Shown piece by piece: positions 12,041-50,243 of a stretch of 64,000 bases of DNA; position 1 is the stretch's first letter; the number at the start of each line of letters is the position of its first letter. The stretch comes from an uncultured Chlorobiaceae bacterium (GTDB lineage Bacteria; Bacteroidota; Chlorobiia; Chlorobiales; Chlorobiaceae): contig CAITSZ010000047.1 of the NCBI GenBank assembly GCA_903895195.1, positions 1 to 64,000 on the forward strand, read 5' to 3'. Position numbers and translations under genes: made by a program. Below the pieces are notes generated by a model. It made no database searches, was not told the DNA's origin, and saw nothing but the letters and a program-made list of their open reading frames with translations.

Positions 12041-13111
12041 ATGAAAAATCAGATCTGGTTGACCGCTGGAATTGCAGGTATGCTTCTCGGTAGTCCTTTT
12101 GCAATTGCTCAGGCAAAAACCGATGTGTATTTCAGTACAGAAAGCAGACCATCCTTTGTTATTGATTCTCCTCCGAGATTGATTTACATGAAAACACAAG
12201 GGTTTTCAGTATCTGTAGGAAGTCGATATGATATGATATTTTATGGGAACCGCTACTATCTTTTCAATGACGGCCGCTGGTACAGCTCTCTTCGTTACCG
12301 TGGACCCTGGACTCTTATGAATAGTAACCACTTACCATTAAAGCTGAGAAGGTATAGCTGGAATGAGATAAGCAGATATCGGGATATTGAGTATCGCCGG
12401 TTGGAGAGCTATGATAAGGACTATCAGCGTAACGACGACAACAAGAGCCGATATATGGATGAGAGGAGCGATGAGAGAGGCCGCAGAAGGTATGAGGAGC
12501 AGCCAAATACTCATACTGAATTTATACCAAATCATCGGGAGCAGTCAACCCAGAGCTTTGAAATCAGGTCGCACCAGGACCGACAGAATGAAGCGCCGGA
12601 CAATAAGCCTAATCGTGGTGAGCAAAGCAGAGGTCAGGATAACAAGCCGAGTCATGACCAGCTTAACAACCCTGCTGAAAACAGGCCAAATCAGGGTCAA
12701 CCAAACAAGCCTTCTGACAGCAGGCCGAACCAGAGTCAGCCAAACAAACCTGCTGACAACAGACCGAGTCAGGGACAACCAAGCAAGCCTTCTGACAGCA
12801 GGCCGAACCAGAGTCAGCCAAACAAACCTGCTGACAACAGACCGAGTCAGGGACAACCAAACAAGCCTGCGGACAACAGGCCAGGTCAGGGACAGTTAAA
12901 CAACCCTGCTGACAGCAGACCGAACCAGGGTCAGCAAAACAAACCTGCGGACAACAGGCCAGGTCAGGGACAACCAAACAAGCCCGCGGACAGCAAACCG
13001 GCTCAGGGAATGCAAAGCAAACCAGCCGACAACAAGCCTCAGGGACAAGGAAAGGCTTCTGACAGCAAGAAACAAGATGGGGCTCAAAAAAGGGATGAGA
13101 AAAATAAATAA
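12041..13111 (+). CDS. exported protein with Pro/Asn/Gln-rich 13-residue tandem repeats
   Basis: 356 residues with a Sec signal peptide (about 1-25, AIAQAKT cleavage region). The N-terminal 110 residues form a compact Tyr/Arg-rich domain with YDMIFYGNRYYLFNDGRWYSS and GPWTLM, the aromatic YxxxDGRWYxS pattern of small exported proteins in Chlorobi/Bacteroidetes. A charged Arg/Asp/Glu linker (about 120-208) leads into ten 13-residue units (about 209-338) of consensus NKPADNRPSQGQP, then a Lys-rich tail. The tail is hydrophilic and disordered, suggesting a cell-surface or periplasmic spacer. No ribosome-binding site is obvious. A hairpin terminator follows. Function unknown. Confidence 0.75.
   Translation: MKNQIWLTAGIAGMLLGSPFAIAQAKTDVYFSTESRPSFVIDSPPRLIYMKTQGFSVSVGSRYDMIFYGNRYYLFNDGRWYSSLRYRGPWTLMNSNHLPLKLRRYSWNEISRYRDIEYRRLESYDKDYQRNDDNKSRYMDERSDERGRRRYEEQPNTHTEFIPNHREQSTQSFEIRSHQDRQNEAPDNKPNRGEQSRGQDNKPSHDQLNNPAENRPNQGQPNKPSDSRPNQSQPNKPADNRPSQGQPSKPSDSRPNQSQPNKPADNRPSQGQPNKPADNRPGQGQLNNPADSRPNQGQQNKPADNRPGQGQPNKPADSKPAQGMQSKPADNKPQGQGKASDSKKQDGAQKRDEKNK
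12665..13054 (+). repeat. ten-copy 39-bp coding tandem repeat, with a 78-bp higher-order unit
   Basis: Units start every 39 bp from 12665. Units 2+3 and 4+5 are almost identical 78-bp pairs, differing at the first codon (AAC versus AGC), which shows recent expansion by two-unit steps. Units 6-10 are progressively diverged. Because 39 is a multiple of 3 the whole array stays open in several frames on both strands. Confidence 0.9.
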
Positions 13112-13153
13112 AAGTTCCTATATGAACTGAAAAGCTTTTAAAAAAGCATTGCC

Positions 13154-13190
13154 AAAGGCCAGGCATCGCCAGACTCCTGGCCTTTTCGGT
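13154..13190 (+). terminator. intrinsic terminator after the repeat protein
   Basis: Perfect 10-bp stem AAAGGCCAGG (13154-13163) / CCTGGCCTTT (13176-13185), 12-nt loop, then TTCGGTTTTCT. Confidence 0.75.
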
Positions 13191-13194
13191 TTTC

Positions 13195-13315
13195 TCAGTG
13201 CTGAGTGCTGAGGGCCGAGGGAGGATAGTTGGCAGTTCGCGGTTGAGAGTTGAGAAGAGAGATTTCGCCACTGCGTCGAAATGACAGAGAGGTGAGAGAG
13301 GATGAAGAGGTGGTG
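13195..13315. repeat. dispersed intergenic repeat mosaic
   Basis: In order: CTCAGTGCTGAGTGCTGAGGG, AGTTGGCAGTTCGCGGTTG, and GATTTCGCCACTGCGTCGAAATGACAGAG. The last resembles the unit at 63.84 kb (TCACTACGTTTCAGGATGACA). The rest of the gap to the sigma-factor gene shows nothing else I can name. Confidence 0.6.
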
Positions 13316-13445
13316 GATCGATTACACTCTATTGATGGAAATACTTATATTTACGAGATGGTGAGTATTTTAGGCTTTACTTATTTTATGATTTCAGACT
13401 CCTGCAAGCAAAACAATGTTAGTTGAACCCGGAAGACTTTAGCTC

Positions 13446-14075
13446 ATGGATAATCCTGATCCAACCCGTAAGGTAACACCCAAGACAAAAAAAGAATCTT
13501 TGTCCAAGGAGGAGCGTCAAAAGCAACTCGAGTTTCAAAAGGAAGCGGTTGTTCATTTGAATTCGCTTTATAATTACGCGCTTCATTTAACCATGAATCC
13601 GAGTGATGCCGAAGATCTGGTACAAGAAACCTATCTCAAGGCGTATAGATTTTTTAATTCTTTTGAGAGGGGAACAAACTGTAAAGCATGGCTGTTTAAA
13701 ATCCTGAAAAACAATTATATCAACCGGTTTCGAAAAAACTCTAAAGAGCCGGGTAAGGTTGATTATGATCTGATTAAGGATTTTTATCATTCTATAAAAG
13801 ATGTTCAGAATGATACCAGTGAAGCGGAAAGCGATTATTTCCATTCATTGCTGCATGAAGAGGTGCATCAGGCTCTTCACTCTTTGCCTGAAGAGTTCAG
13901 GGAAGTGATACAGCTGTGTGATATTGACGGGTTTACTTATGAAGAAATTGCAAATATGGTTGAAAGCCCCATCGGTACCGTAAGATCAAGGTTATACAGA
14001 GGTAGAAAACTGCTTCGGGAACAGCTTGAGGGGTATGCGAAAAAATATGGGTTCAATACCGATAAAGATCAATAA
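13446..14075 (+). CDS. ECF-subfamily RNA polymerase sigma factor
   Basis: 209 residues. After a charged N-terminal 35 residues comes region 2 ([57 protein letters not shown], about 40-98), an acidic linker, and region 4 ([49 protein letters not shown], about 143-192) with the [25 protein letters not shown]. Regions 1.1 and 3 are absent, as in ECF factors. It is 27 bp upstream of a small zinc-finger protein that is the likely anti-sigma factor, so activity is probably controlled post-translationally. Target promoters are not apparent. Confidence 0.92.
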
Positions 14076-36268: not shown

Positions 36269-38389
36269 CTAAGACTTTTGCCGATAGGCGATAAGTGCGA
36301 TACTGGAATACGGCCCTATAAGAAAAGAGTGTGTTGGTTCCAGTAGCGGACCTTCATCGTCATTATTGATATCTGATGGAGCATCACACCCTGTATTGAC
36401 AGCAACACGCCAATAAAAGGGCTCCGGAAGAGATGGAAGCTGGAGTATATTTGCTGTGGATGAGCTGTTCCATGCGTAATAAATAACATCTTCACCAGAA
36501 GAAGTTGTCGATGCCAAAACGACTGCAACGAGGCGGGATTCCGCCGACCAGTCAGGTGACCATGGCTGGCTTCCATGCCAGGATATTTCAGGGAATCCGA
36601 GTGCACCAGCCCTATCACTGCGCGGATGCCTTGATGATCGAAGAGCTGGGTGCCGGAGACGAAGAGAGATGGCTAAGCGCGTAAAACGGAACAGCTCGGA
36701 CTCACTCTCCAGTAATGACCAGTCCAGCCAGTTTAAATGGTTGTCGTGGCAGTATACATTGTTGTTACCCCATTGTGTGCGACCCATTTCATCCCCCATC
36801 AGAAGCATAGGTGTACCTCGGGCGACCATTAACATGAGTAGAGCATTCTTTATCTGGCGCAAACGGAGTGAGCATATTTCCTTGTCAGTTGTTTCGCCTT
36901 CGATACCACAATTCCAGCTTCTATTGTCGTCACTTCCGTCACGATTATCCTCACCATTCGTATCGTTGTGCTTGTGGTTGTAGCTGACCAAATCGCGCAG
37001 AGTAAATCCGTCATGACAGGTAATAAAATTGATCGATGCAAGTGGGCCACGCCCCCCTGCTTCATAAAGGTCAGGAGAACCAGCAATACGGGTAGCAAGA
37101 AGCGAGGCATGATCAGGCATGCCTCGAAGAAAATCGCGGGTGTCGTCACGGAATTTCCCGTTCCATTCGGAAAACCGACCATAGTTAGGAAACTTTCCGA
37201 GGAGATAAAGGCCGCCCGCATCCCAAGCCTCAGCAATAAGTTTGCATTTTTTCAGAATAGGATCAAGGGCCACAGATTCGAGCAAAGGGGGATTATTCAT
37301 GATCATTCCAGATGGATCGCGCCCTAGAATAGCTGCTGCGTCGAACCGGAAACCATCAATATGGTACTCTGATACCCAAAACCGTAAACATTCGAGTACC
37401 ATGTCGCGCACCACGGGATTGTTACAGTTGAGGGAGTTGCCGCAGCCGCTGAAGTTGTGATAGTATCCTTCCGGGGTAAGGAGGTAATAGATCTGGTTAT
37501 CGAGCCCCCTGAAAGAGATGGTCGGCCCTCGGTGATCGCCTTCACATGTATGGTTGAAGACTACATCAAGGATGACCTCAATGCCTGCCTGGTGCAGCGC
37601 ACGAACCATGCTCTTGAATTCATCAGCCTGCATACCCAAACTACCAGTGGCAGCAAACCCGGCCTTCGGTGCGAAAAATCCGACTGTACTGTATCCCCAA
37701 TAGTTCATGTTTGTCCCACCGGTATATGAGTTTGGGACCGAAAGCTCAAATTCGTCAAATTCAAAAACCGGTAGAAGTTCAACACAGTTGACGCCGAGAC
37801 CAATCAGATAGGGTATTTTTTCAACGACTCCGGCATAGGTGCCTGGATGAGCTATTGCGGAAGTTTGATGCCGGGTAAATCCTCGTACATGCATCTCATA
37901 GACGATTAGATCCTCCGAAGGAATTTCCAGTGAACTATCGCCGCGCCAGTCAAAGTCTTCAGGGATCACAAAACCACGATATGGGAACTCATCATCCCAG
38001 TCTGGGGGTATACCCCAAACGTCACGGCCGGAAATCGAACGGACATAGGGATCAAGTAAAACTTTTGACGCATCAAAGCGGTGGCCGATGGCAGGATCCC
38101 AAGGGCCATCCATGCGGTATCCGTATTCGAAACTTTCGGGGTCAAGGTCAAAAATGACTACACTCCAGACATCTCCGATACGGAACGAATCGGGAAGCAG
38201 AAGTTCAGCTATAATCTTGCGGCTCTGCCTGTCGAAGAGTACCAGAGTGCAGGAGGTGGCTGCACTGGAATAAATTGAAAAGTTTACGCCTCCTGGTACA
38301 AGTGATGTTCCATAAGGTCTTACTCGACCGGGGCGAACTTTCCAGCCGGATATTTCAGCGGTTGGATAAAGATCAATACGAGTGCTCAT
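36269..38389 (-). CDS. glgX: glycogen debranching enzyme (GlgX-type isoamylase)
   Basis: Hydrolyses alpha-1,6 branches of phosphorylase-trimmed glycogen. 706 residues: N-terminal CBM48 (about 18-115), then a GH13 barrel with region I DVVFNHT (about 275), region II GFRFDAAAILG (nucleophile Asp, about 347-350), region III AEAWD (general acid Glu, about 386) and region IV ITCHDGF (about 457), and a C-terminal beta domain. MGDEMGRTQWGNNNVYC is typical of GlgX/TreX. Its ATG overlaps the stop of a STAS gene (ATGA), so it is translated with a signalling operon rather than with other glg genes, which is unusual. Confidence 0.95.
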   Translation of the reverse strand: MSTRIDLYPTAEISGWKVRPGRVRPYGTSLVPGGVNFSIYSSAATSCTLVLFDRQSRKIIAELLLPDSFRIGDVWSVVIFDLDPESFEYGYRMDGPWDPAIGHRFDASKVLLDPYVRSISGRDVWGIPPDWDDEFPYRGFVIPEDFDWRGDSSLEIPSEDLIVYEMHVRGFTRHQTSAIAHPGTYAGVVEKIPYLIGLGVNCVELLPVFEFDEFELSVPNSYTGGTNMNYWGYSTVGFFAPKAGFAATGSLGMQADEFKSMVRALHQAGIEVILDVVFNHTCEGDHRGPTISFRGLDNQIYYLLTPEGYYHNFSGCGNSLNCNNPVVRDMVLECLRFWVSEYHIDGFRFDAAAILGRDPSGMIMNNPPLLESVALDPILKKCKLIAEAWDAGGLYLLGKFPNYGRFSEWNGKFRDDTRDFLRGMPDHASLLATRIAGSPDLYEAGGRGPLASINFITCHDGFTLRDLVSYNHKHNDTNGEDNRDGSDDNRSWNCGIEGETTDKEICSLRLRQIKNALLMLMVARGTPMLLMGDEMGRTQWGNNNVYCHDNHLNWLDWSLLESESELFRFTRLAISLRLRHPALRSSRHPRSDRAGALGFPEISWHGSQPWSPDWSAESRLVAVVLASTTSSGEDVIYYAWNSSSTANILQLPSLPEPFYWRVAVNTGCDAPSDINNDDEGPLLEPTHSFLIGPYSSIALIAYRQKS

Positions 38390-38733
38390 AAGAGTATGGG
38401 TTTGGAAACTTGGGCAAGAGCATCATCAACGCTATTGTGTATAGCAAACTGTTCCAAAAAACCAGTGACTGACATGACATCTTTAACTGATTCAGGAATT
38501 GCGACAAGAACAATTTTTTTTCCGTTCACTTTTGCTTCGCGGTAGAGTATGAGAAGCATCCTCAGACCGGCACTTGTAAGAATTCCTATGCCGGAGCAAT
38601 CAAGCACAAGCATATCAGTCGAACATAAAACTGCCATCAGTTTTTCCTGAAGATCTCCTGCTGCAGAATGGGTTATGTCGCCGGTAATGACAGCAATAGC
38701 AGCGCTGTGGTGTTGAGAAACGGTAATTTGCAT
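38386..38733 (-). CDS. STAS-domain anti-sigma factor antagonist
   Basis: 115-residue SpoIIAA/RsbV-like protein. In partner switching the unphosphorylated form binds an RsbW-type kinase and frees its target. Fold motifs: ITVSQHHSAAIAVITGDI, LVLDCSGIGILTSAGLRMLLILYREAK with the phospho-acceptor Ser in TSAG (about 55), and ALAQVSK at the end. Start chosen at the ATG with GGAG eight bases upstream; an earlier in-frame start reaches into the previous gene. Between the NTF2-like gene and glgX, and paired with the phosphatase/kinase gene. Confidence 0.88.
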   Translation of the reverse strand: MQITVSQHHSAAIAVITGDITHSAAGDLQEKLMAVLCSTDMLVLDCSGIGILTSAGLRMLLILYREAKVNGKKIVLVAIPESVKDVMSVTGFLEQFAIHNSVDDALAQVSKPILL

Positions 38734-38734
38734 A

Positions 38735-39259
38735 TTAGGACTCCACATTATAGACTGGGGCTGTTTTTTCAAAAGTTTTTACTATTTTTTTGCGAATGAG
38801 AATGCGACCATCGGCGGGCATTCTTACAAGTTCCAGATACTGGCGCGAAACGGATGCCTCGTAGTGGCTAGTGGCTTCTCCAGGATTCCACCTGCGCCGT
38901 TCCCACCTGACCACCAGTTCAACTATGGCGAGCTGCCCAGAGAGCTTGATATCCCATGACTCAACTTTATGTGTTTCGTCAAAGTATTTGGAAAGGACGT
39001 TTGCATACCATTTACTGAATGCTTCTTTGCCTGTGAATGGTTGCGAAGTATCTGGATAGCGCATCTCTACATCGTCGGTGAGAAGTGCCAGCTGATCTGC
39101 TAATGGCTTATGGTCATTTGTGCCTTGATACCAGCTGAGAATCACATTTTTAACCATCGCTTCCGTCAGTGAAGGCTGGTTGGCTCCTGAGGATGACGCA
39201 GGAAATACGGTGATCAAAAAGATCAATACGAGATAAAAAATGGCTTTTTTGTTCATCAT
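38735..39259 (-). CDS. exported NTF2/SnoaL-like protein
   Basis: 174 residues with a Sec signal peptide (about 1-25, PASSSGA). The mature part has the cone-shaped NTF2/SnoaL pattern: VKNVILSWYQGTNDHKPLADQLALLTDDVEMRYPDTSQPFTGKEAFSKWYANVLSKYFDETHKVESWDIKLSGQLAIVELVVRWERR. Such domains bind small hydrophobic ligands or act as enzymes; nothing identifies a substrate here. Its ATG overlaps the phosphatase gene's TGA by one base (TGATG), so it is translationally coupled to the sensor and may be a periplasmic partner of that sensor's outer domain. Confidence 0.75.
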   Translation of the reverse strand: MMNKKAIFYLVLIFLITVFPASSSGANQPSLTEAMVKNVILSWYQGTNDHKPLADQLALLTDDVEMRYPDTSQPFTGKEAFSKWYANVLSKYFDETHKVESWDIKLSGQLAIVELVVRWERRRWNPGEATSHYEASVSRQYLELVRMPADGRILIRKKIVKTFEKTAPVYNVES

Positions 39260-41670
39260 CAGGAATCCCTCATTGAATTATTTTTTTGGCGAAGATTCGT
39301 GCTGTTTCTGGAACGGACAAGTGTAAGTATGTTGGTGTCCGATGAACGGAACATGCGGATTTCATCGGTATATTGCCTGATGAGAAACCAGCCCATTCCG
39401 CCGATCGGTCGTTCCTCAAGGGGGAGATTGGTATTAACAGGAGCAAGTGCGGCTGGATCAAAAAGTGGTCCGGAATCTTCAATACGGACCACAAAATCAT
39501 CACCGGACCATGAAGTGAATACCCGGTAGAAAAGCGTAGGGTCCTCATGAAGCGAGTATGAAATAACATTGGTAACAGCTTCACAGACTGCCAGTGAAAT
39601 TTCACTGACTGCTTTTGACTCCATCCCTCCTTCCAAGGCAGATTGCTCAATCAACTCGACAACATTTTCTATTGTTGAGTATGACGCAGGGAGTCGCAGT
39701 TCATGAGCATACTCTCCTGCCCTGATGAGCGTCAGTGTGATATCGTCAAATTGATCTTCCTCGCCCTGCCAGCTCATAACCTGCCTCACGAGTTCCTCTG
39801 CCGATTGCTGCAGTGAGCGTTTCTGGCTTTGCTGAAGAAAGGAGGATAGCCGGTCAAGGCCAAACTGTTCGCCCGAAGAGTCCATCGCTTCACTTATTCC
39901 ATCAGTATAGATCGCCAGCAGATCCCCTTGGCTGAAGGGTACATGCCAGGCTGTAAAATGCTTTCCAGGCAAAACGCCAATTGCAGGTCCGCTCTTCTCT
40001 ACAAGCCACTCGACTGTTCCATCCGCCCGGACCAATACCGGCGGGTTGTGACCGCCATTAACACAGATAAGTCTTTGGCCCAACGGATCCAACACTGCAA
40101 GAAAGAAGGTTACAAACATCATCTGAGGATTCGATTCCGCAAGCAACGAGTTTAGCCGGGTAACCGCCTGGTGCGGCTCCATGACAGCGGCAATACTGCG
40201 AAAAAGCAGGCTCACCCGCATCATAAACATCGCCGCCGAAACCCCTTTACCGGAAACATCCCCAATCGTAAATACCGTACAGCCTCCCGGTAGAACGAAG
40301 TGGTCGAAAAAATCACCTCCTACTTCCAAGGCAGGAATTGAGAGGCTGAAGTGGCTGCCGCCCATTAGCTTCATGGGCTCTGGAAGAACGGAGTTCTGGA
40401 TGTTACGGGCAAGTTCCAATTCTGTTTTCAAACGTTGCTGACTGCGAGCCATCTCCTCCTTTCGCAAGAGGGAGAGCTGCAGTTCAGATACCATACCGTT
40501 GAAGGCATCAATAACATCAGCAGTTTCATCATGTGTTAATGATGACGTCGATATGGCAGTGAGATTTCCAGACCGCACATTGCCAACCCCTTTACGAAGA
40601 ACATCAAGATTGCGGGTTGCCAGTCCGGCACTCCATCGAAATAGCAATCCCATTCCTCCTATACAGATAACGCCAAAAAGGAATACTCCCCCGGCAAGCC
40701 ACCATGCGTCGCTGATGAGATCATGAACAGGGAAGACATAGAGAAAAATCAGGGGAATTCCGGATATCTTTCTTGAAAGGAAAATACTTTCCTCTCCATT
40801 ATTCGGATTTATTGCAATGAATGACGCGGATGGAACTGATGGATTCCGAAGTTCCAAAAATGAGACCATTGCACGAGGATTCGCATGAATGAATTCCTGT
40901 AGACGTCCATCGGACTTCTTATACGCTGAGTTCCCCTGGATTCCTGTCAGAAGGCGGCATTGGGGATCTAGAATGAAGAGCTGAAACTCTGTCTTGATAT
41001 CGAGCCCTGACATTGTTTTCAGCATAGATTCGAGAGTGATGTCGATAGCCAACACTCCGTCAACAACAAGTGAACCAGACTCTTCTCGGTTGATCGGTAC
41101 TGAACAGGTGATTTCCGGAACATTTCCTTCATAGGATGAACGATAGGGAAGACTCCAGAACCCGTCGATGAATTCAATGTTTCCCTTGCGAGGGGGAATA
41201 TACCATTGAGTGCCCAGCGAAGCCGGATCATTAGGGTCATATGAAAGTTGGCCTCTGTTGAAACTGCCCTCTTTAGCCCCCTTCCGATAAAGTAAAAGGG
41301 TCCTCACTCCTTTCGGGCCTAAATGGTTGTCGGGTTCGAATGCAACAATTACTGCATGGGCATAAGGAAGGCTATTAAGCGTTTTTTCCATGGCAATATA
41401 CCATGAATCCATTCCCGAAGGACTCCACTGCTGCAGCAGATCCGTGATAGTGTGTACCTGCTGTTTAATGGAACGCAAGTCCCATTTAAGCTTGTTTACC
41501 TGGATATCCAGACGGTTATCAAGATCATCTAAACGACCATGAAGCATAAGCTCACGACCCTGCCAGATTGTCACCGGTGCTGTGAACAAAAAGATAATGC
41601 AGGAGCAAAACACCGCGATAATAGTGAAGCGCTCTTTGAGTCGTTTTGGGAGAAGACGATTGAGGTTCAT
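39259..41670 (-). CDS. membrane sensor serine phosphatase (RsbU/SpoIIE-type PP2C) fused to an RsbW-like kinase domain
   Basis: About 803 residues. N-terminal helix (about 15-37), periplasmic Cache-like sensor domain (about 40-315), second helix (about 322-344), HAMP linker (about 345-398), short coiled coil, PP2C phosphatase (about 415-645; NSVLPEP, EVGGDFFDHFVLPGG, IGDVSGKGVSAAMFMMRVS, NGGHNPPVL, YTDGISEAMDSSGEQFG, DDITLTLI), and a C-terminal HATPase_c_2/RsbW-like domain (about 660-785) with N-box CEAVTNVISYSLHED and GGMGWFLIRQYTDEIR. Phosphatase and kinase on one chain would switch the neighbouring STAS proteins both ways. ATG at 41670 preferred to GTG two codons upstream. Confidence 0.92.
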   Translation of the reverse strand: MNLNRLLPKRLKERFTIIAVFCSCIIFLFTAPVTIWQGRELMLHGRLDDLDNRLDIQVNKLKWDLRSIKQQVHTITDLLQQWSPSGMDSWYIAMEKTLNSLPYAHAVIVAFEPDNHLGPKGVRTLLLYRKGAKEGSFNRGQLSYDPNDPASLGTQWYIPPRKGNIEFIDGFWSLPYRSSYEGNVPEITCSVPINREESGSLVVDGVLAIDITLESMLKTMSGLDIKTEFQLFILDPQCRLLTGIQGNSAYKKSDGRLQEFIHANPRAMVSFLELRNPSVPSASFIAINPNNGEESIFLSRKISGIPLIFLYVFPVHDLISDAWWLAGGVFLFGVICIGGMGLLFRWSAGLATRNLDVLRKGVGNVRSGNLTAISTSSLTHDETADVIDAFNGMVSELQLSLLRKEEMARSQQRLKTELELARNIQNSVLPEPMKLMGGSHFSLSIPALEVGGDFFDHFVLPGGCTVFTIGDVSGKGVSAAMFMMRVSLLFRSIAAVMEPHQAVTRLNSLLAESNPQMMFVTFFLAVLDPLGQRLICVNGGHNPPVLVRADGTVEWLVEKSGPAIGVLPGKHFTAWHVPFSQGDLLAIYTDGISEAMDSSGEQFGLDRLSSFLQQSQKRSLQQSAEELVRQVMSWQGEEDQFDDITLTLIRAGEYAHELRLPASYSTIENVVELIEQSALEGGMESKAVSEISLAVCEAVTNVISYSLHEDPTLFYRVFTSWSGDDFVVRIEDSGPLFDPAALAPVNTNLPLEERPIGGMGWFLIRQYTDEIRMFRSSDTNILTLVRSRNSTNLRQKNNSMRDS

Positions 41671-41689
41671 GATCACGCCAGTTTCAGGA

Positions 41690-42616
41690 TTACCATCCGT
41701 AGCGTGTCAACCCTTTTTCGAGTACCTCTATGAGTTTCTGTCCGCAAAGTGCCGAATCGCCTGTGGTTCGGGCGGTGATGATCGGATAATCGACAATCAC
41801 TGAATATTTTTTTCCGACATTTCCTATGAACTGCCCATCAGGTCCAACGGCATCTTTGAGAATAAATTCAAGCTGGTATGGGGCGCCCTGAAAGCCATGA
41901 TCAATCTTTATATAGCCATGGCCATCGTTATAATCGAAGGCAAGAGGGTGACCGGTAACCCGTTTACCATAAACAATGCTTTTCTCTGTAATCTCGTCAC
42001 GCGTGAATGCCAACACAGCAACGCCGTAGCACTCGCCCGCTACAGGTTTTCCGGCTTTAATGAATATTTTTACAAGTTCCTGGAGCCGCTTGTTGTTGGC
42101 CATATCGAGAATGGGCCCACTGCCACCTACCAATAAAAGGGCATCATATTTCTGTACATCGATGGCCACCTTGTCTAGAGCGTCATTGTAGGCAAAAAGT
42201 TCGTTGAGGTATACGGGGGAACTTAGATAGGGCTTTGAGGGAAGCCATTTTGTCAGGTTGACTGGATGGTTCAGCTTGTCAGATGCTTCAATCGCCCTGA
42301 CTTTTGCAGCCATCACGGGAGTGGTAACCGTGCGGGCAAGAGGAGGATCGATAAAGAGAGGATCCATACTTGGTGGCAGTGCAAGCGGCTTTGTACCCTT
42401 GGGTGTTGCAAAATCAACGGTGTAGCCTGCAGCCTCAAGCGATTCGAGCGGGCCGATAAGCTCTTCACCCCAGTAGCCGAATTCTGAAAGCACAAATAGA
42501 ACACGTTTGTTCAGTTTGGGTTTTTTGGTCTGCACCTCACTTGCCATAGCCATGGCAGGTAGAGTAATGAAGAGCAATAGTAATAACACAGCTCGGTTTG
42601 GTATGTTCATTTTCAT
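41690..42616 (-). CDS. exported DJ-1/PfpI family protein (Hsp31-like)
   Basis: 308 residues with a Sec signal peptide (about 1-25, AMAMASE). A class I glutamine-amidotransferase-like/DJ-1 domain follows: KRVLFVLSEFGYWGEELIGPLESLEAAGYTVDFATPKG near the start, and the nucleophile elbow AGECYGVAVLAF with the reactive Cys (about 196). Hsp31/YhbO-type members act as deglycases, glyoxalases or chaperones; the exported location is uncommon. Thirteen bp upstream of the phosphatase sensor gene on the same strand. A periplasmic carbonyl- or redox-related role is possible but inferred. Confidence 0.82.
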   Translation of the reverse strand: MKMNIPNRAVLLLLLFITLPAMAMASEVQTKKPKLNKRVLFVLSEFGYWGEELIGPLESLEAAGYTVDFATPKGTKPLALPPSMDPLFIDPPLARTVTTPVMAAKVRAIEASDKLNHPVNLTKWLPSKPYLSSPVYLNELFAYNDALDKVAIDVQKYDALLLVGGSGPILDMANNKRLQELVKIFIKAGKPVAGECYGVAVLAFTRDEITEKSIVYGKRVTGHPLAFDYNDGHGYIKIDHGFQGAPYQLEFILKDAVGPDGQFIGNVGKKYSVIVDYPIITARTTGDSALCGQKLIEVLEKGLTRYGW

Positions 42617-42729
42617 GGGGGATTCTTCGATTAGTTGTGTTTATGTTATTATTTAAAAGGGGTAATGTTGGTAAAAATCAACGTTTCGTCCGGTGATCTT
42701 TAGAGAGAAGCTGGCGTTTTGGGCAATCC

Positions 42730-43068
42730 TCAATCTAAAGAGAGCTTGAGGGCTTCCTCTGTAGAAGATGCCAGCTTGAAGTATGGGAGAAATCCGGTTA
42801 CTTCCAGAGTGTCGAGCATCGTCGGGGTAAGAGTGCAGAGCACGAGACTTCCCTCAAGCTTCTGTATTTGCCGGACGACGAGAAGCAACATCCTGAGACC
42901 GCTGCTTGCAAGATAGGTAACCTTGCCAAAATCGAGAATCAGGTATTTCTTCCCCTCCTGGATCATCTTGATAATACGGGCTTCAACTACGGGCGTTGTC
43001 GAAGCATCAAGCTTGCCTACCAGATCTACGATAGTTGATTCGCCATGATATTTTTCTTGAATTTCCAT
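42730..43068 (-). CDS. STAS-domain anti-sigma factor antagonist (second copy)
   Basis: 112 residues, RsbV/SpoIIAA fold: MEIQEKYHGESTIVDLVGKLDASTTPVVEARI, YLILDFGKVTYLASSGLRMLLLVVRQIQK with the acceptor Ser in the ASSG motif (about 57), and GFLPYFKLASSTEEALKLS. It and the STAS gene at 38.4 kb are clearly related in the LRMLL region but otherwise diverged, so they may bind different partners. Upstream end of the signalling run, 113 bp before the DJ-1 gene, with a 140-bp gap to the ankyrin gene. Confidence 0.9.
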   Translation of the reverse strand: MEIQEKYHGESTIVDLVGKLDASTTPVVEARIIKMIQEGKKYLILDFGKVTYLASSGLRMLLLVVRQIQKLEGSLVLCTLTPTMLDTLEVTGFLPYFKLASSTEEALKLSLD

Positions 43069-43208: not shown

Positions 43209-44915
43209 CTACCATGAGGAAGAGGCGAGCTCAAGTATATTGCCATAAGGATCGGCACAAAAGGCAATTTGTACACCCCTCTGCATTGAACGATCAAGTA
43301 TCCGTCCGCCACGCAGGACAATACGACCAGCGAGTGTATCGACATCTCCAACGATGAGACAGGCGTGCAAAAAGCCTGAACGGGGCGATTGTGTCGCTGG
43401 AAGAGTTGGAGATACTTCAAAAAGCTCGAGGACCTGCAACATTGGAGCTCCGGAAGCTCGAAGACGAACGATTCGAAGTTTGGTAATACTGCCTCCAAAA
43501 AGAGCGGTAGCTCTTTGCCACTTGCCTGCATCATCTGGACCATGAGTCACCGGCTTGCTTAATGGAGCAAAGCCGAAGACATCTCCATACCATTTCATAG
43601 CTGCTTCCAGGTCCTTTACACCGATAGCTACATGGTTGAATTGAAGGGGTGTGGCTGCAGAATCAAGCGCATTAAGAATTGCTTTGCGACGGTCAAGGTT
43701 TGAAATTTTTTCTCCATACTGGTACTGTGTGAGTCCGGAAAAGTCTTCAATATTTGATTGTGCTCCTGAGGCGACTTCCCAGCGAATCTGTTCGATATAT
43801 CGATGGAACCGTTCTTCATTGGCAGTGCTGGCACGAAGCACCGCATCGTGGAGAGCGGTGAGGCCGTTCACCACAGGCCGCTGGTTGAGTGCTCCGGCTA
43901 ATTCGGCGGAGGTGAGCCGAGAGCCCATGCGTTTAAGGATATCAAGATGGCCAAAGACGGACGCACGAATGATGGCATTGGCTCCCATAGGGTGAACCTC
44001 GTAGATCAGAGGATTGGCTCCACGATCAAGCAGCAGGCTGGCAATGCGCAGCCTGAGCGAAGCAGCAGCTTCAGGATATGGATTCATATTGTTCCCTGTA
44101 ACAGTGACGACAAGAGGAGGCTGCCGGAGGAAACCGCCACGACGGTTGACATCAACGCCTTCCATGCTCAGGGCAATAGTAGACGAGAGGGCTTCGATCT
44201 TTTTTGGATCACTGGCTACCTGCTTTAGACCTTCTTCGATGAGAGCAACAAGTGTATCGGATTTCTTTTGGGCTTGCTCCTCTTTCGATGGTACGGGTAC
44301 CCGGATACGCTCGAGCAATGCGGTATAATAGGCATTTTTGGCTGATTCATTAACCTCACCGGGAGATAGAGCTTGAAGGAGAGATTGATTGTCGAACTGC
44401 TTTGCAAAATCAGCAGCTGTAATGCCGCGCAGGGTAGTAGCTGCAGGATTAGCACCCTTTGCAATTGCAAATGCAGCAAGATCACTATGCCCGTAAAAGG
44501 CTGCCTGAAGAAGAAGGGTATGACCATTGAGCAGCCATACTGCATCAAGATCTTTCGGCCTTGCTGCCAGTATGAGTGATGCGGTTTCGACGCTTCCGGA
44601 GTGTCCGGCCATGTGTATCGGCAGGGCGCCTGAAGGCGCAAATGGCACAGAAGGATCCGCTTTGCGAATTGAGTTATTCAACAGCAAATCAACTGTCTTG
44701 GCCTGCCCTCGCACAGCAGCCTTGAGCAGCGGTGTCCATCCTTCAGAATCGGCCATATCGGGGTTACCTCCTTTGGCGATCCAATCTCGAAGAAGCTTCA
44801 GGTCTCCCCTTCCAGCAGCGTCCACAGCAACGGAAACAGAAGATCCTGCAAAAGCAATGTCAGTTCCAATATCTGGAAGAAGTATAAGGATCAAAATTAT
44901 CCAGAGCTTTTTCAT
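43209..44915 (-). CDS. exported ankyrin-repeat protein fused to a VOC/glyoxalase domain
   Basis: 568 residues. Sec signal peptide (about 1-24, DIAFAG), ankyrin repeats (about 25-190 and 240-400; GRGDLKLLRDWIAKGGNPDMADSEGWTPLLKAAVRGQAKTVDLLL), and a C-terminal vicinal-oxygen-chelate domain (about 428-568). The VOC domain keeps all four glyoxalase-type metal ligands by pattern: His in FNHVAIGVKD, Glu in LELFEV, His in FLHACLIVGDV and Glu in GNILELASS. A periplasmic protein with a repeat scaffold and a complete glyoxalase-like site is an unusual combination. Could be a lactoylglutathione-lyase-like or dioxygenase-like enzyme; substrate unknown. Confidence 0.8.
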   Translation of the reverse strand: MKKLWIILILILLPDIGTDIAFAGSSVSVAVDAAGRGDLKLLRDWIAKGGNPDMADSEGWTPLLKAAVRGQAKTVDLLLNNSIRKADPSVPFAPSGALPIHMAGHSGSVETASLILAARPKDLDAVWLLNGHTLLLQAAFYGHSDLAAFAIAKGANPAATTLRGITAADFAKQFDNQSLLQALSPGEVNESAKNAYYTALLERIRVPVPSKEEQAQKKSDTLVALIEEGLKQVASDPKKIEALSSTIALSMEGVDVNRRGGFLRQPPLVVTVTGNNMNPYPEAAASLRLRIASLLLDRGANPLIYEVHPMGANAIIRASVFGHLDILKRMGSRLTSAELAGALNQRPVVNGLTALHDAVLRASTANEERFHRYIEQIRWEVASGAQSNIEDFSGLTQYQYGEKISNLDRRKAILNALDSAATPLQFNHVAIGVKDLEAAMKWYGDVFGFAPLSKPVTHGPDDAGKWQRATALFGGSITKLRIVRLRASGAPMLQVLELFEVSPTLPATQSPRSGFLHACLIVGDVDTLAGRIVLRGGRILDRSMQRGVQIAFCADPYGNILELASSSW

Positions 44916-45584
44916 AAGGAAACCTCGATTAATTGATTTTTGACGCCACTAAAAGCGGGCCGAACGCCATAGGCCATGAGTTCAGTTTTTCTTGATCTGG
45001 TAACAACTGTTCTTTGTCACGATTTGGAGGTTAAATGCACCGTTTTGCTTACAACTGGTCGCACTTTTCCCATGATTGCATAGATTTTTTGACACTTCAA
45101 GCAAAAAATACTCGTCAAACATGCCTAATAGGTTGATGTTTTTCATGATGAAGAGCTTAATGAGTCTCATTCCATTAAGATACGAATTTTAATTCTTATT
45201 TTTATAACGCTAAATCGTTCTATATTATAGACTTATATCGCCTTAGAATAAATAGAGATGCCCTGATATCGCTCTCTTTCTTTTTGGTTTTTGTTGCATC
45301 ATGATGGCAATTACCCGTTACCCATTATAGCATAAAAATTAACCGACTATTCGAGGGCTTTTTTTATTGCGAATCGCACCACTCAGGCTTGTATCGTTTT
45401 AGGCTGATCAGTATAAACCGGGATGATAATAGATATATCTGGTTTATATTATAATAGAATGATATTTTAAGTCGTTTTTTATTGCGATTTTGGAGTCATT
45501 TTATACAGAGAGGAACTATCCGCTTTTTCCGAATTAGATGGATCAGTCTAAACAATGTTAGAGCGCCACAACCAAGGAGACAAC
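44916..45584. other. long AT-rich intergenic region
   Basis: Separates the minus-strand ankyrin-VOC gene from the plus-strand NTF2-like gene. It holds a 13-bp direct repeat TTTTTTATTGCGA at 45360-45372 and 45475-45487, TATA-rich stretches suitable for divergent promoters (around 45215 and 45445), and no convincing gene. A short open frame on the minus strand (44982-45170) has no ribosome-binding site or recognisable domain. Confidence 0.5.
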
Positions 45585-46235
45585 ATGCGTTTAATAAAAG
45601 CTATCGGCACAACACTTATTCATCGAATCTTCTGCTTACTTGCATGCGGTGTGTTCCTTCATGCAGGTTTGAATACCGCATCTGCGACCGCTGCTGTAAA
45701 CCAGGCCACTGACAACTCCATGCAGGCCGGGCACACCAAATTCAACGCCGCAGACCGTTTCGCGATCACGAACGTGATCATGGCTATGACCAATGGGTTG
45801 GATGAGAAGAACCTGAAGCAGATGATCTCCAATCTCACTCCGGAATTCTCGGTCGAATACCGCTTGCCGGGGTTGAACCCCGTCAAGATCGAGGGACGCG
45901 ACAATTTTGGCAAAATGATGGCTAAGCGGTTCGAAAACCTCAACGCCGACGGGATCGAACGCCGACACATCATCTCGCCACTCTACTTCATAGAGCAATC
46001 GCCGAACTCCGCCAGAATCCTTATCCAAATCATCACCTGCAGCGCGACCTACCGGGCGAATTGGTTTCCAATGTCTTCGGCGAAGGTCGAATTTCAGCTT
46101 GTAAAACACGACGATCTCTGGCTTTGCTCCCGCCAACTGGAAACGTTGGACGGCCCGCTGGACTTGCCGCTCAGCAAAGTCATCCCCCTGCCTGCGGGAA
46201 TGGTCACAGAACCTGTCGGAGCCAAGCAAAAGTGA
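45585..46235 (+). CDS. exported SnoaL/NTF2-like protein, atypical base composition
   Basis: 216 residues; start chosen for the AAGGAGACAAC ribosome-binding site just before ATG. Signal peptide about 1-35 (long, Leu-rich: IFCLLACGVFLHAGLNTASAT). The mature part is SnoaL-like: DRFAITNVIMAMTNGLDEKNLKQMISNLTPEFSVEYRLPGLNPVKIEGRDNFGKMMAKRFENL...RRHIISPLYFIEQ. Codons are strongly G/C-ending (for example the stretch after 46100), unlike all neighbours, and the gene is the only plus-strand one in this 16-kb minus-strand block. Both suggest recent acquisition. Ligand or substrate unknown. Confidence 0.8.
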   Translation: MRLIKAIGTTLIHRIFCLLACGVFLHAGLNTASATAAVNQATDNSMQAGHTKFNAADRFAITNVIMAMTNGLDEKNLKQMISNLTPEFSVEYRLPGLNPVKIEGRDNFGKMMAKRFENLNADGIERRHIISPLYFIEQSPNSARILIQIITCSATYRANWFPMSSAKVEFQLVKHDDLWLCSRQLETLDGPLDLPLSKVIPLPAGMVTEPVGAKQK

Positions 46236-46338: not shown

Positions 46339-47946
46339 TTATTTGTGATGGACGAGAACTACAGAATATTCGCCGGATTGGGTATCTGCCGAGAACCTGT
46401 ATATGCCGTTCCTTGGGCAGTTAAACGAGAGTGGTGGAGGATTGCCATGCAATGCAAGGCGACGGTATCCGTCATAAGGATAATCTACCAACGACCATGA
46501 CCATCCTGCGTGATTTGCTGTATATTTGTAGTGATAGACAACCCCTCCGGTCAGCATAATATCTCTGGTGAAAAGATGCCCATTTGAGGTGCCCATGTCA
46601 TGCATGGGGTCAATCGGGTTCCAGCCTTCTTTTCCATCTTTGGCGAAAGCTTCGAAATTACCTGCAATTTGCAATGACTCAATTCGGGTAATCGGTGTAA
46701 CCGGGGGATCAATGGCAAAGGATCCTTTGGTGGGATCAAGAGTCACCATATACTCACCATCCTTCTCCACCCGGAAAAGGATGTTCGATTCCTGCGGGGC
46801 TGAATGCCATGTTTTACCCCAGAGGCCGCCAAAACCGATGCTGTCGAGTGCCCAGTCGGCATTGATTGAGAAGTTCATTGTATAGACTCCCGTGCCGATA
46901 CTGCCTCCGGTATTTTTCAGATTCAGAGACTTTTGCCATACTCCATTTTTCCCTTTTATCATTTGATGGCCAGGTGCTGAAGGGTTCCATGGATCATTCA
47001 CCACATCGCCGTTAACCTGATATTCAGGATTATGGTAGAAATCTACCGTTGGTGAAATGCTGAAGCGATAGCTTTCAGGCCAGACGGTGAAGGTATAGCG
47101 GGCATCAGCAGAAACTCGAAAAACAATGGCGGTCTCCAGGATATTACCGACCCTACTGTCGTAGCCGTTGCCGCCTGCAAGACGTCCGGGTTTGTCGAGA
47201 ATTGCACTGTATCCCCAGTCTGCGTTGTGATTGGCTGAAAAGAGGCACTGGTATACTCCGTTGTTTTCATGCCCGCCTTTTGCGGAAAGAAGCAGCGAAA
47301 TCGTCCAAGAGCCATCCCGGTTATTGGTAAATTCATGGGAAGGAACCCACTCATCCCACTTTTCGGCAGGTCTTGTCAATCGACCATCAAAACATTCAGT
47401 ATTCCCCTCCTTGTCGTGTACAAAGCCGTTGAGCTGAAAAGATTGAATTTGCAAGAGTTCATCGACATGTGGTGTGACCAGGTAGGTAGAGGCATTCGGG
47501 TTAAACGTAATAACATAAGTGCCATCGAGGGGCACTTTAAATATAACATTGCCTCCAAATACTGATCCTGGGCCGCTCACAAGCTTTCCGGGTTCGAGTC
47601 CCCGTTTGAAAACTGAACGGAGATCTTTTCCTGTAAGAAATCGCATGGAATAGATGCCGTCATGGTTTCGGCCGCCTGTGGCGCTTAGCAAGAGAGTTTT
47701 TTTGAAGTTTCCGTTGCTCTCGTACTCCATGTCATTAAGGGGGTCAAACGGATTCCACATAGAGCGTCCATCCATCAGAGTCCCGACAAGCTGTGCTGTT
47801 AAAGGAGTCGGTTTTGCAAACAAGTAGGAGCGAGCTGCGGGCACCAAAAGTGATGTCAGGAACAGAAGTAGAGTGATGATCTTTTTCAGTGCCTTTGTCA
47901 ATAGCCACTTTCCTGTCATGAGTAGCTTGAAATCAGTTTCAGTCAT
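46339..47946 (-). CDS. exported protein of four X25-like glycan-binding modules
   Basis: 535 residues. Signal peptide near residues 10-45 (a Met at codon 10 may be the true start). Four repeats of about 110-135 residues follow (about 50-155, 160-300, 305-425, 430-535). Each has W-N-P-x-D-P-x-x-x-M (or a variant), then N-G-x-F/W-x-K/R-x-L-x-L-x-x-x-G-G, then Y-x-x-x-F-x-x-N-x-x-W-x-x-S/D and a closing Y-x-F/V-x-x-D-x-x-x-x-x-Y-x-V strand. This is the pattern of the pullulanase X25/SusE-type starch-binding modules. No catalytic domain. Last of three minus-strand genes with 8-bp spacing to the HEAT carrier. Confidence 0.7.
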   Translation of the reverse strand: MTETDFKLLMTGKWLLTKALKKIITLLLFLTSLLVPAARSYLFAKPTPLTAQLVGTLMDGRSMWNPFDPLNDMEYESNGNFKKTLLLSATGGRNHDGIYSMRFLTGKDLRSVFKRGLEPGKLVSGPGSVFGGNVIFKVPLDGTYVITFNPNASTYLVTPHVDELLQIQSFQLNGFVHDKEGNTECFDGRLTRPAEKWDEWVPSHEFTNNRDGSWTISLLLSAKGGHENNGVYQCLFSANHNADWGYSAILDKPGRLAGGNGYDSRVGNILETAIVFRVSADARYTFTVWPESYRFSISPTVDFYHNPEYQVNGDVVNDPWNPSAPGHQMIKGKNGVWQKSLNLKNTGGSIGTGVYTMNFSINADWALDSIGFGGLWGKTWHSAPQESNILFRVEKDGEYMVTLDPTKGSFAIDPPVTPITRIESLQIAGNFEAFAKDGKEGWNPIDPMHDMGTSNGHLFTRDIMLTGGVVYHYKYTANHAGWSWSLVDYPYDGYRRLALHGNPPPLSFNCPRNGIYRFSADTQSGEYSVVLVHHK

Positions 47947-47954
47947 TACGGCAT

Positions 47955-50243
47955 CTATGAGAATTTTCCAGCCTGAGTTATTGTTTCAGATACTGAGATA
48001 CGACTGTTCATAACATCATATACGCCACCAAGAAGAAAGGCAACGCGGGTTTTCTCTTCTGATGAGAGTTTTGCTACGCCAAACAGAATCTCGTCAACGG
48101 CCTCTTCCCCCAGATCAGGAAGTAATGGTATTAAGTCGCTCTGAAAAAGTCTGGCGTTTTCTTCTTCAGCCATTGTCTCGCATACCACGTCGATAGCCTT
48201 CTGCCTGAGTTCGGGATCGGCTCCAAAACGAATGAGAGCTGCACCTGCCAAAATACGGGCGATCGAATTCGGTGAATTGAGTATTCGAGCCGGTGCAGAT
48301 GGCTCAGGGCAATCTCCGACAAGATGACAGACGGCCAGAGCTGCCTGGTGGGCATCGGGATCGTCACCTTCGAGAAGCTCTGAGAGTACGCGGCGAACCT
48401 TTAATTTCATTTCAGGTTCGTCCCATAGTGCCTGAACTGCCGCAGCCCTTACCATTGCGGATTCATCCTGAAGCATCGGCTCAAGTAACGCTCTTTTTTC
48501 TGCGCTGAGAATTCCGATAGCCTCTACTACTCGTGCGCGAACAGGAACCGTGCCGTTTTCAAGCCATTTCTTTGCCATCTCCTGCCACTGCCCGGCCGGC
48601 TGTTTTAGAAGAACAAGCTTGAGAGCATCGGCGCGAATGGCCGGTTCAGGATCGGATTCAACCAGGCGATGGAGAATATCGTAAGCCTCAGAGGGCAGGG
48701 GGCGCTTTTTCAAGAGGTGTGTCATGGAGCGTAAAGATTCTGCACGAACATGGACAACCGGGTCATGCAGCAACAGGTAGAGGGCCTGCAGTGAGCTATT
48801 GCCGGCGATACTGGCCCTCACACGGGCCAGGGCGGCACGTCTCTGAGGGTCCTTCATTTTTGCGACCTCTTCGAGCATCACTTCAGCTCTTGCGTTTGCA
48901 GGCTCTACAAGGCAATCAATAGCATCCATGACTGTCCGTTGCTCTGCGCTTTTCAGGTTATCGGCAATCATATCCATGTAATGCTTTTGGGAATTGACAA
49001 CCACAATAATCCAAAGGGTGGAAAGAGCGATTCCGGAGAGCGTCACAGGATCCAGCCAGCCGGATTTGTTTACTGTATCGAAGGTATGATGGAGAAAGAT
49101 AATGAGCAAGCCTCCAATAACGCCACCAAGCGGGTTGATGACCCCATCGATGAAGCCACGAATACGTGCACGAAGTGAGCCTGGAATTGCATTGAGAGCC
49201 AGTTGATAAGAATTACCCTGAATAGTCATACCGACCAAGTCCCATGTACAGCGCATAAAAAGTCCAGACCAGAAAAGGAAATATGACCCAATGAGGGCAA
49301 ATCCTGCGAGGATGGATACTGGAAGAGCACAAAGCCCTCGTGAAACACCAATACGACGGATGAGATAGCTGCTGAAAAAGAGCTGTACGAGAAGTCCGGC
49401 TGCATTTATAATCATCCCGTAAATACCATAAAAGCCAGCCAGTTTTGCTTCGGAAGGAAAGGTGATGTTCATGATGCGCGAGAACTGATAATCAGCGAGA
49501 GAACCCACAACCCAGAACATGACCGCAATGAATCCAAGAGTGACTGCCATTTTGGAACGAAAAAAGAACTCCCAGCCTTCAAGAAGTCGTGAACCAGCCG
49601 GTTGAGCATTGGAGACTCCTGACTTTCTGCCTCGCAGCTCGCCTCCAAAACGTTTGCGCATCCACCATGTGAGTGGAATCAATGCCAATATGGCAGCGGC
49701 CCATATAAGGACAAGGTTGGCCGTTCCGAGGGAGCTTGCAAGGTAGTGAATTGAAGCTCCTCCAACGATTCCGCCTATAGTCCCTGCTGTTCCAACGATG
49801 GGGTAAAGTCTTCTGCCCTGGGAAGGACGGAACAGATCATTGATAATAGTCCAGACTTGTGTTCCAAGTGTAGAGTTACCTATGCCTTGCGCAAAAAAGA
49901 CCACGGTAAAAAAAAGAACGAGCTGAACTGAAAACCCTTTTTCTCCTTCATGATTTGCTGTAACCAGGGTTCTGGCCAGCAAAAGCATAAGCCCGGTTAC
50001 AAGTGCGAAAATCATCAGGAGGCGGTCTCTACGCACCACATCGGCAAACATCAGATATACTGATGATCCGAGTACACCCAAAAGACTGATACCAATGTAT
50101 GTATATGGAAGGTATTCGATTCCCATTCGTTTGACCAGCATCGAATGAACTGCACTCCAGCCGATTGCATAGCCAATGGCAAGAAGTGCGACCATTGACC
50201 AGGTAATGACCACCTTCGAAATTTCGTCCTTCTGTATCACCAT
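47955..50243 (-). CDS. MFS/ATP-ADP-translocase-like carrier with C-terminal HEAT repeats
   Basis: 762 residues. Residues about 1-425 form about 12 membrane helices (ITWSMVALLAIGYAIGWSAVHSMLVKRMGIEYLPYTYIGISLLGVLGSSVYLMFADVVRRDRLL...), resembling the nucleotide-translocase branch of the MFS superfamily. Residues about 430-745 are soluble HEAT repeats (RAALARVRASIAGNSSLQALYLLLHDPVVHVRAESLRSMTHLL; VRAAAVQALWDEPEMK). Such carrier-HEAT fusions are known as uncharacterised proteins; substrate unknown. Cotranscribed with an exported AGE-like protein (upstream, 59 bp) and an exported glycan-binding protein (downstream, 8 bp), which points to an envelope-linked substrate. Confidence 0.78.
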   Translation of the reverse strand: MVIQKDEISKVVITWSMVALLAIGYAIGWSAVHSMLVKRMGIEYLPYTYIGISLLGVLGSSVYLMFADVVRRDRLLMIFALVTGLMLLLARTLVTANHEGEKGFSVQLVLFFTVVFFAQGIGNSTLGTQVWTIINDLFRPSQGRRLYPIVGTAGTIGGIVGGASIHYLASSLGTANLVLIWAAAILALIPLTWWMRKRFGGELRGRKSGVSNAQPAGSRLLEGWEFFFRSKMAVTLGFIAVMFWVVGSLADYQFSRIMNITFPSEAKLAGFYGIYGMIINAAGLLVQLFFSSYLIRRIGVSRGLCALPVSILAGFALIGSYFLFWSGLFMRCTWDLVGMTIQGNSYQLALNAIPGSLRARIRGFIDGVINPLGGVIGGLLIIFLHHTFDTVNKSGWLDPVTLSGIALSTLWIIVVVNSQKHYMDMIADNLKSAEQRTVMDAIDCLVEPANARAEVMLEEVAKMKDPQRRAALARVRASIAGNSSLQALYLLLHDPVVHVRAESLRSMTHLLKKRPLPSEAYDILHRLVESDPEPAIRADALKLVLLKQPAGQWQEMAKKWLENGTVPVRARVVEAIGILSAEKRALLEPMLQDESAMVRAAAVQALWDEPEMKLKVRRVLSELLEGDDPDAHQAALAVCHLVGDCPEPSAPARILNSPNSIARILAGAALIRFGADPELRQKAIDVVCETMAEEENARLFQSDLIPLLPDLGEEAVDEILFGVAKLSSEEKTRVAFLLGGVYDVMNSRISVSETITQAGKFS

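Follow-up and report, generated by a model that had tools for sequence, protein, structure and literature searches.

Here, we describe a predicted partner-switching operon in a 64,000-nucleotide (nt) stretch of DNA from an uncultured Chlorobiaceae bacterium (positions 1 to 64,000 of the forward strand of contig CAITSZ010000047.1, assembly GCA_903895195.1; referred to below as the window). Six minus-strand open reading frames (ORFs) at positions 36269-43068 encode, in order, a STAS protein (STAS1), an exported DJ-1-like protein, a membrane sensor, an exported NTF2-like protein, a second STAS protein (STAS2) and the glycogen debranching enzyme GlgX. We consider it likely that these genes form a partner switch governing alpha-glucan use, whose STAS-GlgX core is old and shared with the icfG cluster of cyanobacteria. 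What can be read directly from the sequence comprises an active-looking membrane protein with dCache, PP2C and kinase domains, two STAS proteins that each carry a predicted acceptor Ser, a glgX gene overlapping that of STAS2, and the conservation of this arrangement.

The STAS-GlgX core

A STAS gene was found directly upstream of glgX in 50 of the 51 loci belonging to the GlgX clade of the window, which spans six phyla, compared with none of 32 ordinary glgX loci, including several from the same genomes. Here, the 51 loci are those with enough upstream sequence, and a gene was taken as directly upstream if its STAS match ended no more than 400 nt before glgX; the aligned ends were a median of 24 nt apart. 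A preliminary description of this DNA, made from the sequence alone, had considered that the adjacency of glgX might be lost in relatives; the opposite was observed. The same description had suggested a link to glycogen, which is strengthened both by these counts and by the neighbors of the pair in Streptomyces noursei, where the cluster runs on into genes for a GlgC-like nucleotidyltransferase, glgE and glgB.

The GlgX of the window (36269-38389, minus strand; 706 amino acids, aa) is an isoamylase-type glycogen debranching enzyme that scored 678.1 bits against TIGR02100, above the equivalog cut-off of 640.9, with a complete catalytic triad (D350/E387/D460) by alignment to isoamylase structures. 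Among solved structures, plant isoamylase 1 was the closest, with 658 bits, compared with 520-530 bits for bacterial GlgX/TreX. Outside these Chlorobiaceae operons, the nearest glgX genes were those of Actinobacteria, Cyanobacteria, Planctomycetes, Chloroflexi and Methylobacter (54-62% identity), whereas ordinary Chlorobium GlgX was only 43-45% identical. In a maximum-likelihood tree, 37 STAS-linked GlgX sequences, including those of Chlorobiaceae, fell on one side of a branch with 100% support, apart from ordinary Chlorobium GlgX. The clade could also be recognized by its N-terminus: the motif [RKH][VILM]DxxPT (RIDLYPT at residues 4-10 in the window) was present in 51 of 54 members and its DxxPT part in all 54, compared with none of the 32 ordinary enzymes. 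An N-terminal insertion was also considered as a distinguishing feature of the clade, and proved to be an artefact of local-alignment trimming of the ordinary sequences; with true N-termini, what is left is the RIDxxPT motif.

Among the 43 loci with long flanks, PP2C genes were found in 36 of the STAS-glgX clusters and kinase genes in at least 26 (a lower bound, obtained by BLAST), and AGE epimerase and PfpI genes in 36 and 34, respectively. A second STAS gene, the kinase and the PP2C usually lay downstream of the pair, and AGE epimerase, PfpI, DJ-1, TPP enzyme, SnoaL and GMC oxidoreductase genes often lay upstream. In three loci (L089, L096 and L166), the pair occurred with no detectable kinase or PP2C in the stretch examined. 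Thus, the constant part of these clusters appears to be the STAS-GlgX pair, not the switch enzymes. Alternatively, the target of the switch might be some unrelated pathway of stress response or detoxification (DJ-1, NTF2 and glyoxalase), with glgX as a passenger. The recurrence of DJ-1, SnoaL, TPP enzyme, GMC oxidoreductase and PfpI genes in the wider cluster would fit such a view, and so would a locus in another genome of the same genus (L165, genome G112), in which SnoaL, DJ-1, TPP enzyme, PfpI, an ordinary glgX and AGE epimerase genes are clustered with no STAS match. However, a STAS gene upstream of glgX was far more constant than DJ-1 (24 of 43) or SnoaL/NTF2 (9 of 43), and we regard this explanation as quite unlikely.

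Comparison with known partner switches

The icfG cluster (slr1852-slr1861) has been known from Synechocystis PCC 6803 since the 1990s and has ties to carbon metabolism (Shi et al. 1999, cited in PMC8670252; PMC12329169). It contains genes for an epimerase (slr1855), two STAS proteins (slr1856 and slr1859), an isoamylase (slr1857), the IcfG phosphatase (slr1860) and a kinase (slr1861); both STAS proteins are substrates of the kinase, Slr1856 is dephosphorylated by IcfG, and mutants of the cluster grow poorly on glucose or at low carbon (PMC12329169, PMC8670252). In a cyanobacterial locus of our set (L160), from which the domains compared here were read, the genes stand in exactly the icfG order; its sensor is of the dCache-HAMP-SpoIIE type, and the kinase has a gene of its own. 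The icfG cluster and the window operon each have a STAS gene immediately before a glgX of the clade described above, and a further STAS gene. Both also encode a membrane-bound phosphatase with dCache, HAMP and SpoIIE domains, a kinase resembling RsbW and a member of the DJ-1/PfpI family, and neither includes a sigma gene. On the other hand, the icfG kinase is a separate gene, whereas that of the window is a domain of the sensor and groups apart from the icfG kinases. The other STAS gene lies downstream of glgX in icfG but upstream of DJ-1 in the window; the AGE epimerase and 200-aa PfpI genes, both upstream of STAS-glgX in the icfG type, are absent from the window operon; and DJ-1 and NTF2 carry signal peptides in the window.

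The combination of two STAS genes, glgX and no adjacent sigma gene, which the preliminary description had set against the Bacillus model, is therefore present but not new, being the icfG arrangement. RsbU/RsbV/RsbW and SpoIIE/SpoIIAA/SpoIIAB of Bacillus have the same three domain families and the same catalytic residues as the window, but on individual proteins and alongside a sigma factor that is known; in the window, phosphatase and kinase are fused and no sigma gene is adjacent. This fusion had likewise been put forward as a contrast to Bacillus. It exists here, but we rejected it as a novelty, because PP2C and an RsbW-like kinase acting on STAS proteins are already known on one chain in Rv1364c (PDB 3ke6), in HsbR and CrsR (Pseudomonas/Shewanella) and in SypE (Vibrio), and similar fusions occur in Pseudomonadota. 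In two such pseudomonadotal loci (L168 and L169), a PAS or dCache input with a fused PP2C-kinase precedes a single STAS gene or a pair of them, and no glgX was found in the stretch examined. The input of HsbR and CrsR is described as a receiver domain, in contrast to the membrane dCache of the window, and none of the four proteins has been described with glgX. GlgX as the direct target of a signal has a precedent in Streptomyces venezuelae, where it is under the control of c-di-GMP (PMC9530166); this enzyme (PDB 7u39, 520 bits to the GlgX of the window) is of the ordinary type by score, and its control is small-molecule allostery, not a STAS protein.

In the literature, where subscription papers were mostly beyond our search, we found no report of an icfG-type cluster outside cyanobacteria and none of a GlgX-STAS interaction. 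No demonstration that such a switch controls glycogen use was found either. Taken together, the link between the switch and glycogen appears to be old and partly known already, and the cross-phylum STAS-GlgX core and the clade-specific N-terminal RIDxxPT motif appear to be new.

Organization of the Chlorobiaceae operon

All six ORFs of the preliminary description were found, and its domain calls were backed by Pfam and NCBIfam. The intergenic gaps, in the order given above, are 113, 19, -1, 1 and -4 nt. Thus, the near-zero spacing claimed for the operon holds from DJ-1 onward, so that the tightly packed part consists of the last five genes, and does not hold between STAS1 and DJ-1 (113 nt) or, strictly, between DJ-1 and the sensor (19 nt). 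Overlaps had been reported throughout the last four genes; those of sensor and NTF2 (TGATG) and of STAS2 and glgX (ATGA) were seen, but NTF2 and STAS2 are separated by 1 nt. Promoter- and terminator-like sites did not exceed chance level. As the gene order is kept in other Chlorobiaceae genomes, the arrangement is not due to chance.

The sensor (39259-41670, minus strand; 803 aa, ATG at 41670) is predicted to consist of a transmembrane segment, a dCache domain, a second transmembrane segment, HAMP, a SpoIIE-type PP2C (about residues 450-650) and an RsbW-like HATPase_c_2 kinase (about 660-790). Pfam matches were obtained for SpoIIE (6.4e-50), HATPase_c_2 (2.3e-17) and an MCP-like PDC (8.7e-8). 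Of the domains expected earlier, HAMP (0.009) and dCache_1 stayed below Pfam's own cut-offs, and dCache was backed by the fold search: the predicted structure (predicted local distance difference test, pLDDT, 64.7; built from five sequences) had its best matches in Rv1364c (RsbU-RsbW pair, E 2e-18) and in the dCache domains of several chemoreceptors. An extracytoplasmic signal, as proposed earlier, would fit this dCache fold. The PP2C metal-binding Asp residues (D453, D471, D590 and D642/D643) are invariant among five orthologs, and so are the N-box/G-box residues of the kinase (E697, N701, D732, G758 and G760), which align with RsbW 6m36. STAS1 (42730-43068, minus strand; 112 aa; STAS 4.9e-19, TIGR00377 1.1e-21) is anti-sigma-antagonist-like, with 67-75% identity in other Chlorobiaceae genomes, and its predicted phospho-acceptor is Ser55 (LASSGLR); in STAS2 (38386-38733, minus strand; 115 aa, ATG at 38733; STAS 9.4e-16, TIGR00377 3.1e-17), directly upstream of glgX, it is Ser54 (LTSAGLR). 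Both align with SpoIIAA Ser58, and the Ser-[SA]-G motif is retained across loci. Loss of catalytic residues, raised earlier as a possible objection, was not seen on alignment, where all were intact. A degenerate, dead switch was rejected on these grounds; PP2C, kinase and STAS proteins look active, and the earlier reading as a partner switch is backed by the PP2C Asp residues, the kinase boxes and the acceptor Ser of both STAS proteins.

In phylogenetic trees with long branches, the kinase half of the sensor grouped with kinases of Chlorobium, Bacteroidota and Methylobacter, apart from those of icfG clusters (support 99/95), and the PP2C half took no firm place. Accordingly, the operon resembles an icfG-type STAS-GlgX core placed under another regulator, and has the look of a chimera in which GlgX, STAS2, DJ-1 and NTF2 go with the cross-phylum cluster and the kinase falls outside the kinases of that cluster. 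Because the kinase does not appear orthologous to icfG-cluster kinases, we call the operon a variant on the icfG core rather than an icfG operon, and the fused regulator of the Chlorobiaceae version, with its kinase outside the icfG kinases, appears to be new. With regard to origin rather than function, the whole icfG operon might have been transferred horizontally from cyanobacteria or Actinobacteria. GlgX is closer to those groups (55-62%) than to ordinary Chlorobium GlgX (43-45%), and the distribution is patchy: the fused sensor was found in 5 of 86 Chlorobiaceae genomes, from two genera, with an identical operon order in the loci read out. However, the Chlorobiaceae GlgX is not nested in a clade of another phylum and the kinase groups apart, so a single simple transfer does not fit and is in our opinion unlikely; what does fit is a core, either transferred or inherited, whose regulator was replaced. 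No relative was found in a scan of the genome collection using the sensor alone as query.

A second partner-switch locus is present in the same genome, on another contig (C34, about 97-104.5 kb; L037:7032-14551). It encodes an NMT1-like binding protein, a dCache-HAMP-PP2C sensor, parts of an amino-acid ABC transporter, an ABC ATPase, a STAS protein and an RsbW-like kinase, and a similar order occurs in other Chlorobium (L039). Residues 253-359, at the C-terminus of the ABC ATPase, gave a weak match to HATPase_c_2 that stayed below the cut-off (E 0.004); an ABC ATPase that carried an RsbW-like domain beside a STAS gene would be unusual. This locus was rejected as a recent parent of the operon, since its similarity is 28-36%, it has no glgX, and its PP2C and kinase form a separate, well-supported tree group.

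The remaining two operon genes encode exported proteins. The DJ-1/ThiJ-like protein (41690-42616, minus strand; 308 aa; ThiJ_like 2.9e-15) has an N-terminal Sec signal peptide (MKMNIPNRAVLLLLLFITLPAMAMA) and a predicted nucleophile, Cys196 (GECYG), that aligns with the DJ-1 Cys; the NTF2/SnoaL-like protein (38735-39259, minus strand; 174 aa; SnoaL_2 3.8e-6) also has a signal peptide. DJ-1 orthologs outside the Chlorobiaceae fused-sensor operons start near the domain and lack a signal peptide, as do NTF2 orthologs of Actinobacteria and Bacteroidota and both orthologs in L165, from another Chlorobium. Only in fused-sensor operons are both proteins exported, and this gain of signal peptides appears to be new.

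The conserved block is larger than first described, as it also includes an ankyrin-glyoxalase gene and a SusE/F-like gene in relatives. Both are present in L063, L064 and L065, the three orthologs of the locus that were read over their whole length. The former encodes an exported protein that combines ankyrin repeats with a glyoxalase domain (43209-44915, minus strand; 568 aa; Ank_2 6.2e-17, Glyoxalase 6.5e-11) and adjoins the operon in L063 and L064, and lies 3 kb beyond glgX in L065. The latter (46339-47946, minus strand) encodes an exported 535-aa protein whose predicted fold has four SusE/SusF/X25-like modules, and was found in the 5 of 86 genomes that have the fused sensor and in no others. 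Under independence, this coincidence would have odds of 1 in 34.8 million, a figure overstated owing to the relatedness of the genomes. This co-occurrence is new. Foldseek matched the low-confidence model (pLDDT 61) to SusF (7.1e-8) and Sca5 X25-2 (1.4e-7), with VIA Z values of 10.6 (X25-2), 10.2 (pullulanase) and 10.0 (N/F domain of amylase Amy703); SusE with maltoheptaose was also matched, and little besides starch-binding proteins. A profile search against PDB sequences gave nothing meaningful, and no sequence family was matched. The predicted fold would point to an alpha-glucan in the cell envelope. In view of the signal peptides on DJ-1 and NTF2, the dCache sensor and this SusE/F-like neighbor, it is suggested that part of the pathway has moved to the periplasm in the Chlorobiaceae lineage.

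Two further neighbors were noted. A second exported NTF2/SnoaL-like gene (45555-46235, plus strand) lies between the SusE/F-like and ankyrin genes, with none at this place in the orthologous loci. An MFS-like transporter with HEAT repeats (47961-49835, minus strand) has a counterpart of 70% identity that is adjacent in L063 as well, which carries the synteny past the operon.

Output of the switch

We propose that a periplasmic ligand bound by the dCache domain would tip the balance between kinase and PP2C, and that this balance would set the phosphorylation of STAS1 and STAS2, for which the kinase domain may compete. In one of its two states, STAS2 would then control alpha-glucan use, the simplest route being an effect on GlgX or on the supply of GlgX from the same operon. 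The exported DJ-1, NTF2 and SusE/F-like proteins may act on, or hold, a carbohydrate-related envelope compound of the same response. A more specific version, which we put forward only tentatively, is that STAS2 could be a regulatory partner of GlgX, controlled by phosphorylation and binding the enzyme at its N-terminal RIDxxPT tail, which is specific to this GlgX clade.

Several observations weigh against control of alpha-glucan use through GlgX. Slr1861 has been reported as an anti-sigma factor for SigC (PMC12329169), so the output may be transcriptional; the same paper states that the sigma targets of Slr1856 and Slr1859 are unknown. One clade GlgX, that of L095, has no nearby STAS gene yet keeps the motif, which therefore need not serve a STAS protein. 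Most Chlorobium genomes lack any GlgX of comparable strength, so the operon is dispensable. Gene adjacency indicates functional association and says nothing on the direction of control. It should also be noted that the kinase and PP2C trees carry long branches.

The main rival is a transcriptional output, in which the kinase domain, STAS1 or STAS2 would control a sigma factor or another transcription partner encoded elsewhere, with glgX as one co-transcribed member. Besides the report on Slr1861, this would agree with the binding of RpoS by HsbR and CrsR, which also carry PP2C and kinase on one chain, and the partner genes of such a switch need not adjoin the operon. However, there is no sigma gene in the operon, the nearest one (13446-14075) being 22 kb away, and the genome encodes only four Sigma70_r2 proteins, three in frames of about 200 aa (the size of extracytoplasmic function, ECF, sigma factors) and one of 325 aa; these two points weaken the rival. 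In addition, the operon kinase groups apart from the icfG kinases, and L089, L096 and L166 have the STAS-glgX pair with no kinase or PP2C found in the stretch examined. We consider a transcriptional output somewhat unlikely. As a separate observation, the gene directly upstream of the ECF-size sigma gene at 13446-14075 encodes an exported protein of low complexity, in which PNQGQPNKPADNR-like repeats are numerous (12041-14075 for both, plus strand).

If STAS2 does bind GlgX, the system would be a partner switch with a metabolic enzyme, not a sigma factor, as its direct output, distributed over at least six phyla, and in Chlorobiaceae an envelope sensor would drive the GlgX-directed switch jointly with the DJ-1, NTF2 and SusE/F-like proteins that are exported. 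The near-invariant STAS-GlgX pair and the enzyme motif turn the question of the targets of the icfG STAS proteins into a direct binding test, and the Chlorobiaceae variant offers a single-protein sensor suited to testing the input. If this holds, partner switching would extend from gene regulation to directly controlling the use of carbon stores in phototrophs, Streptomyces and other bacteria.

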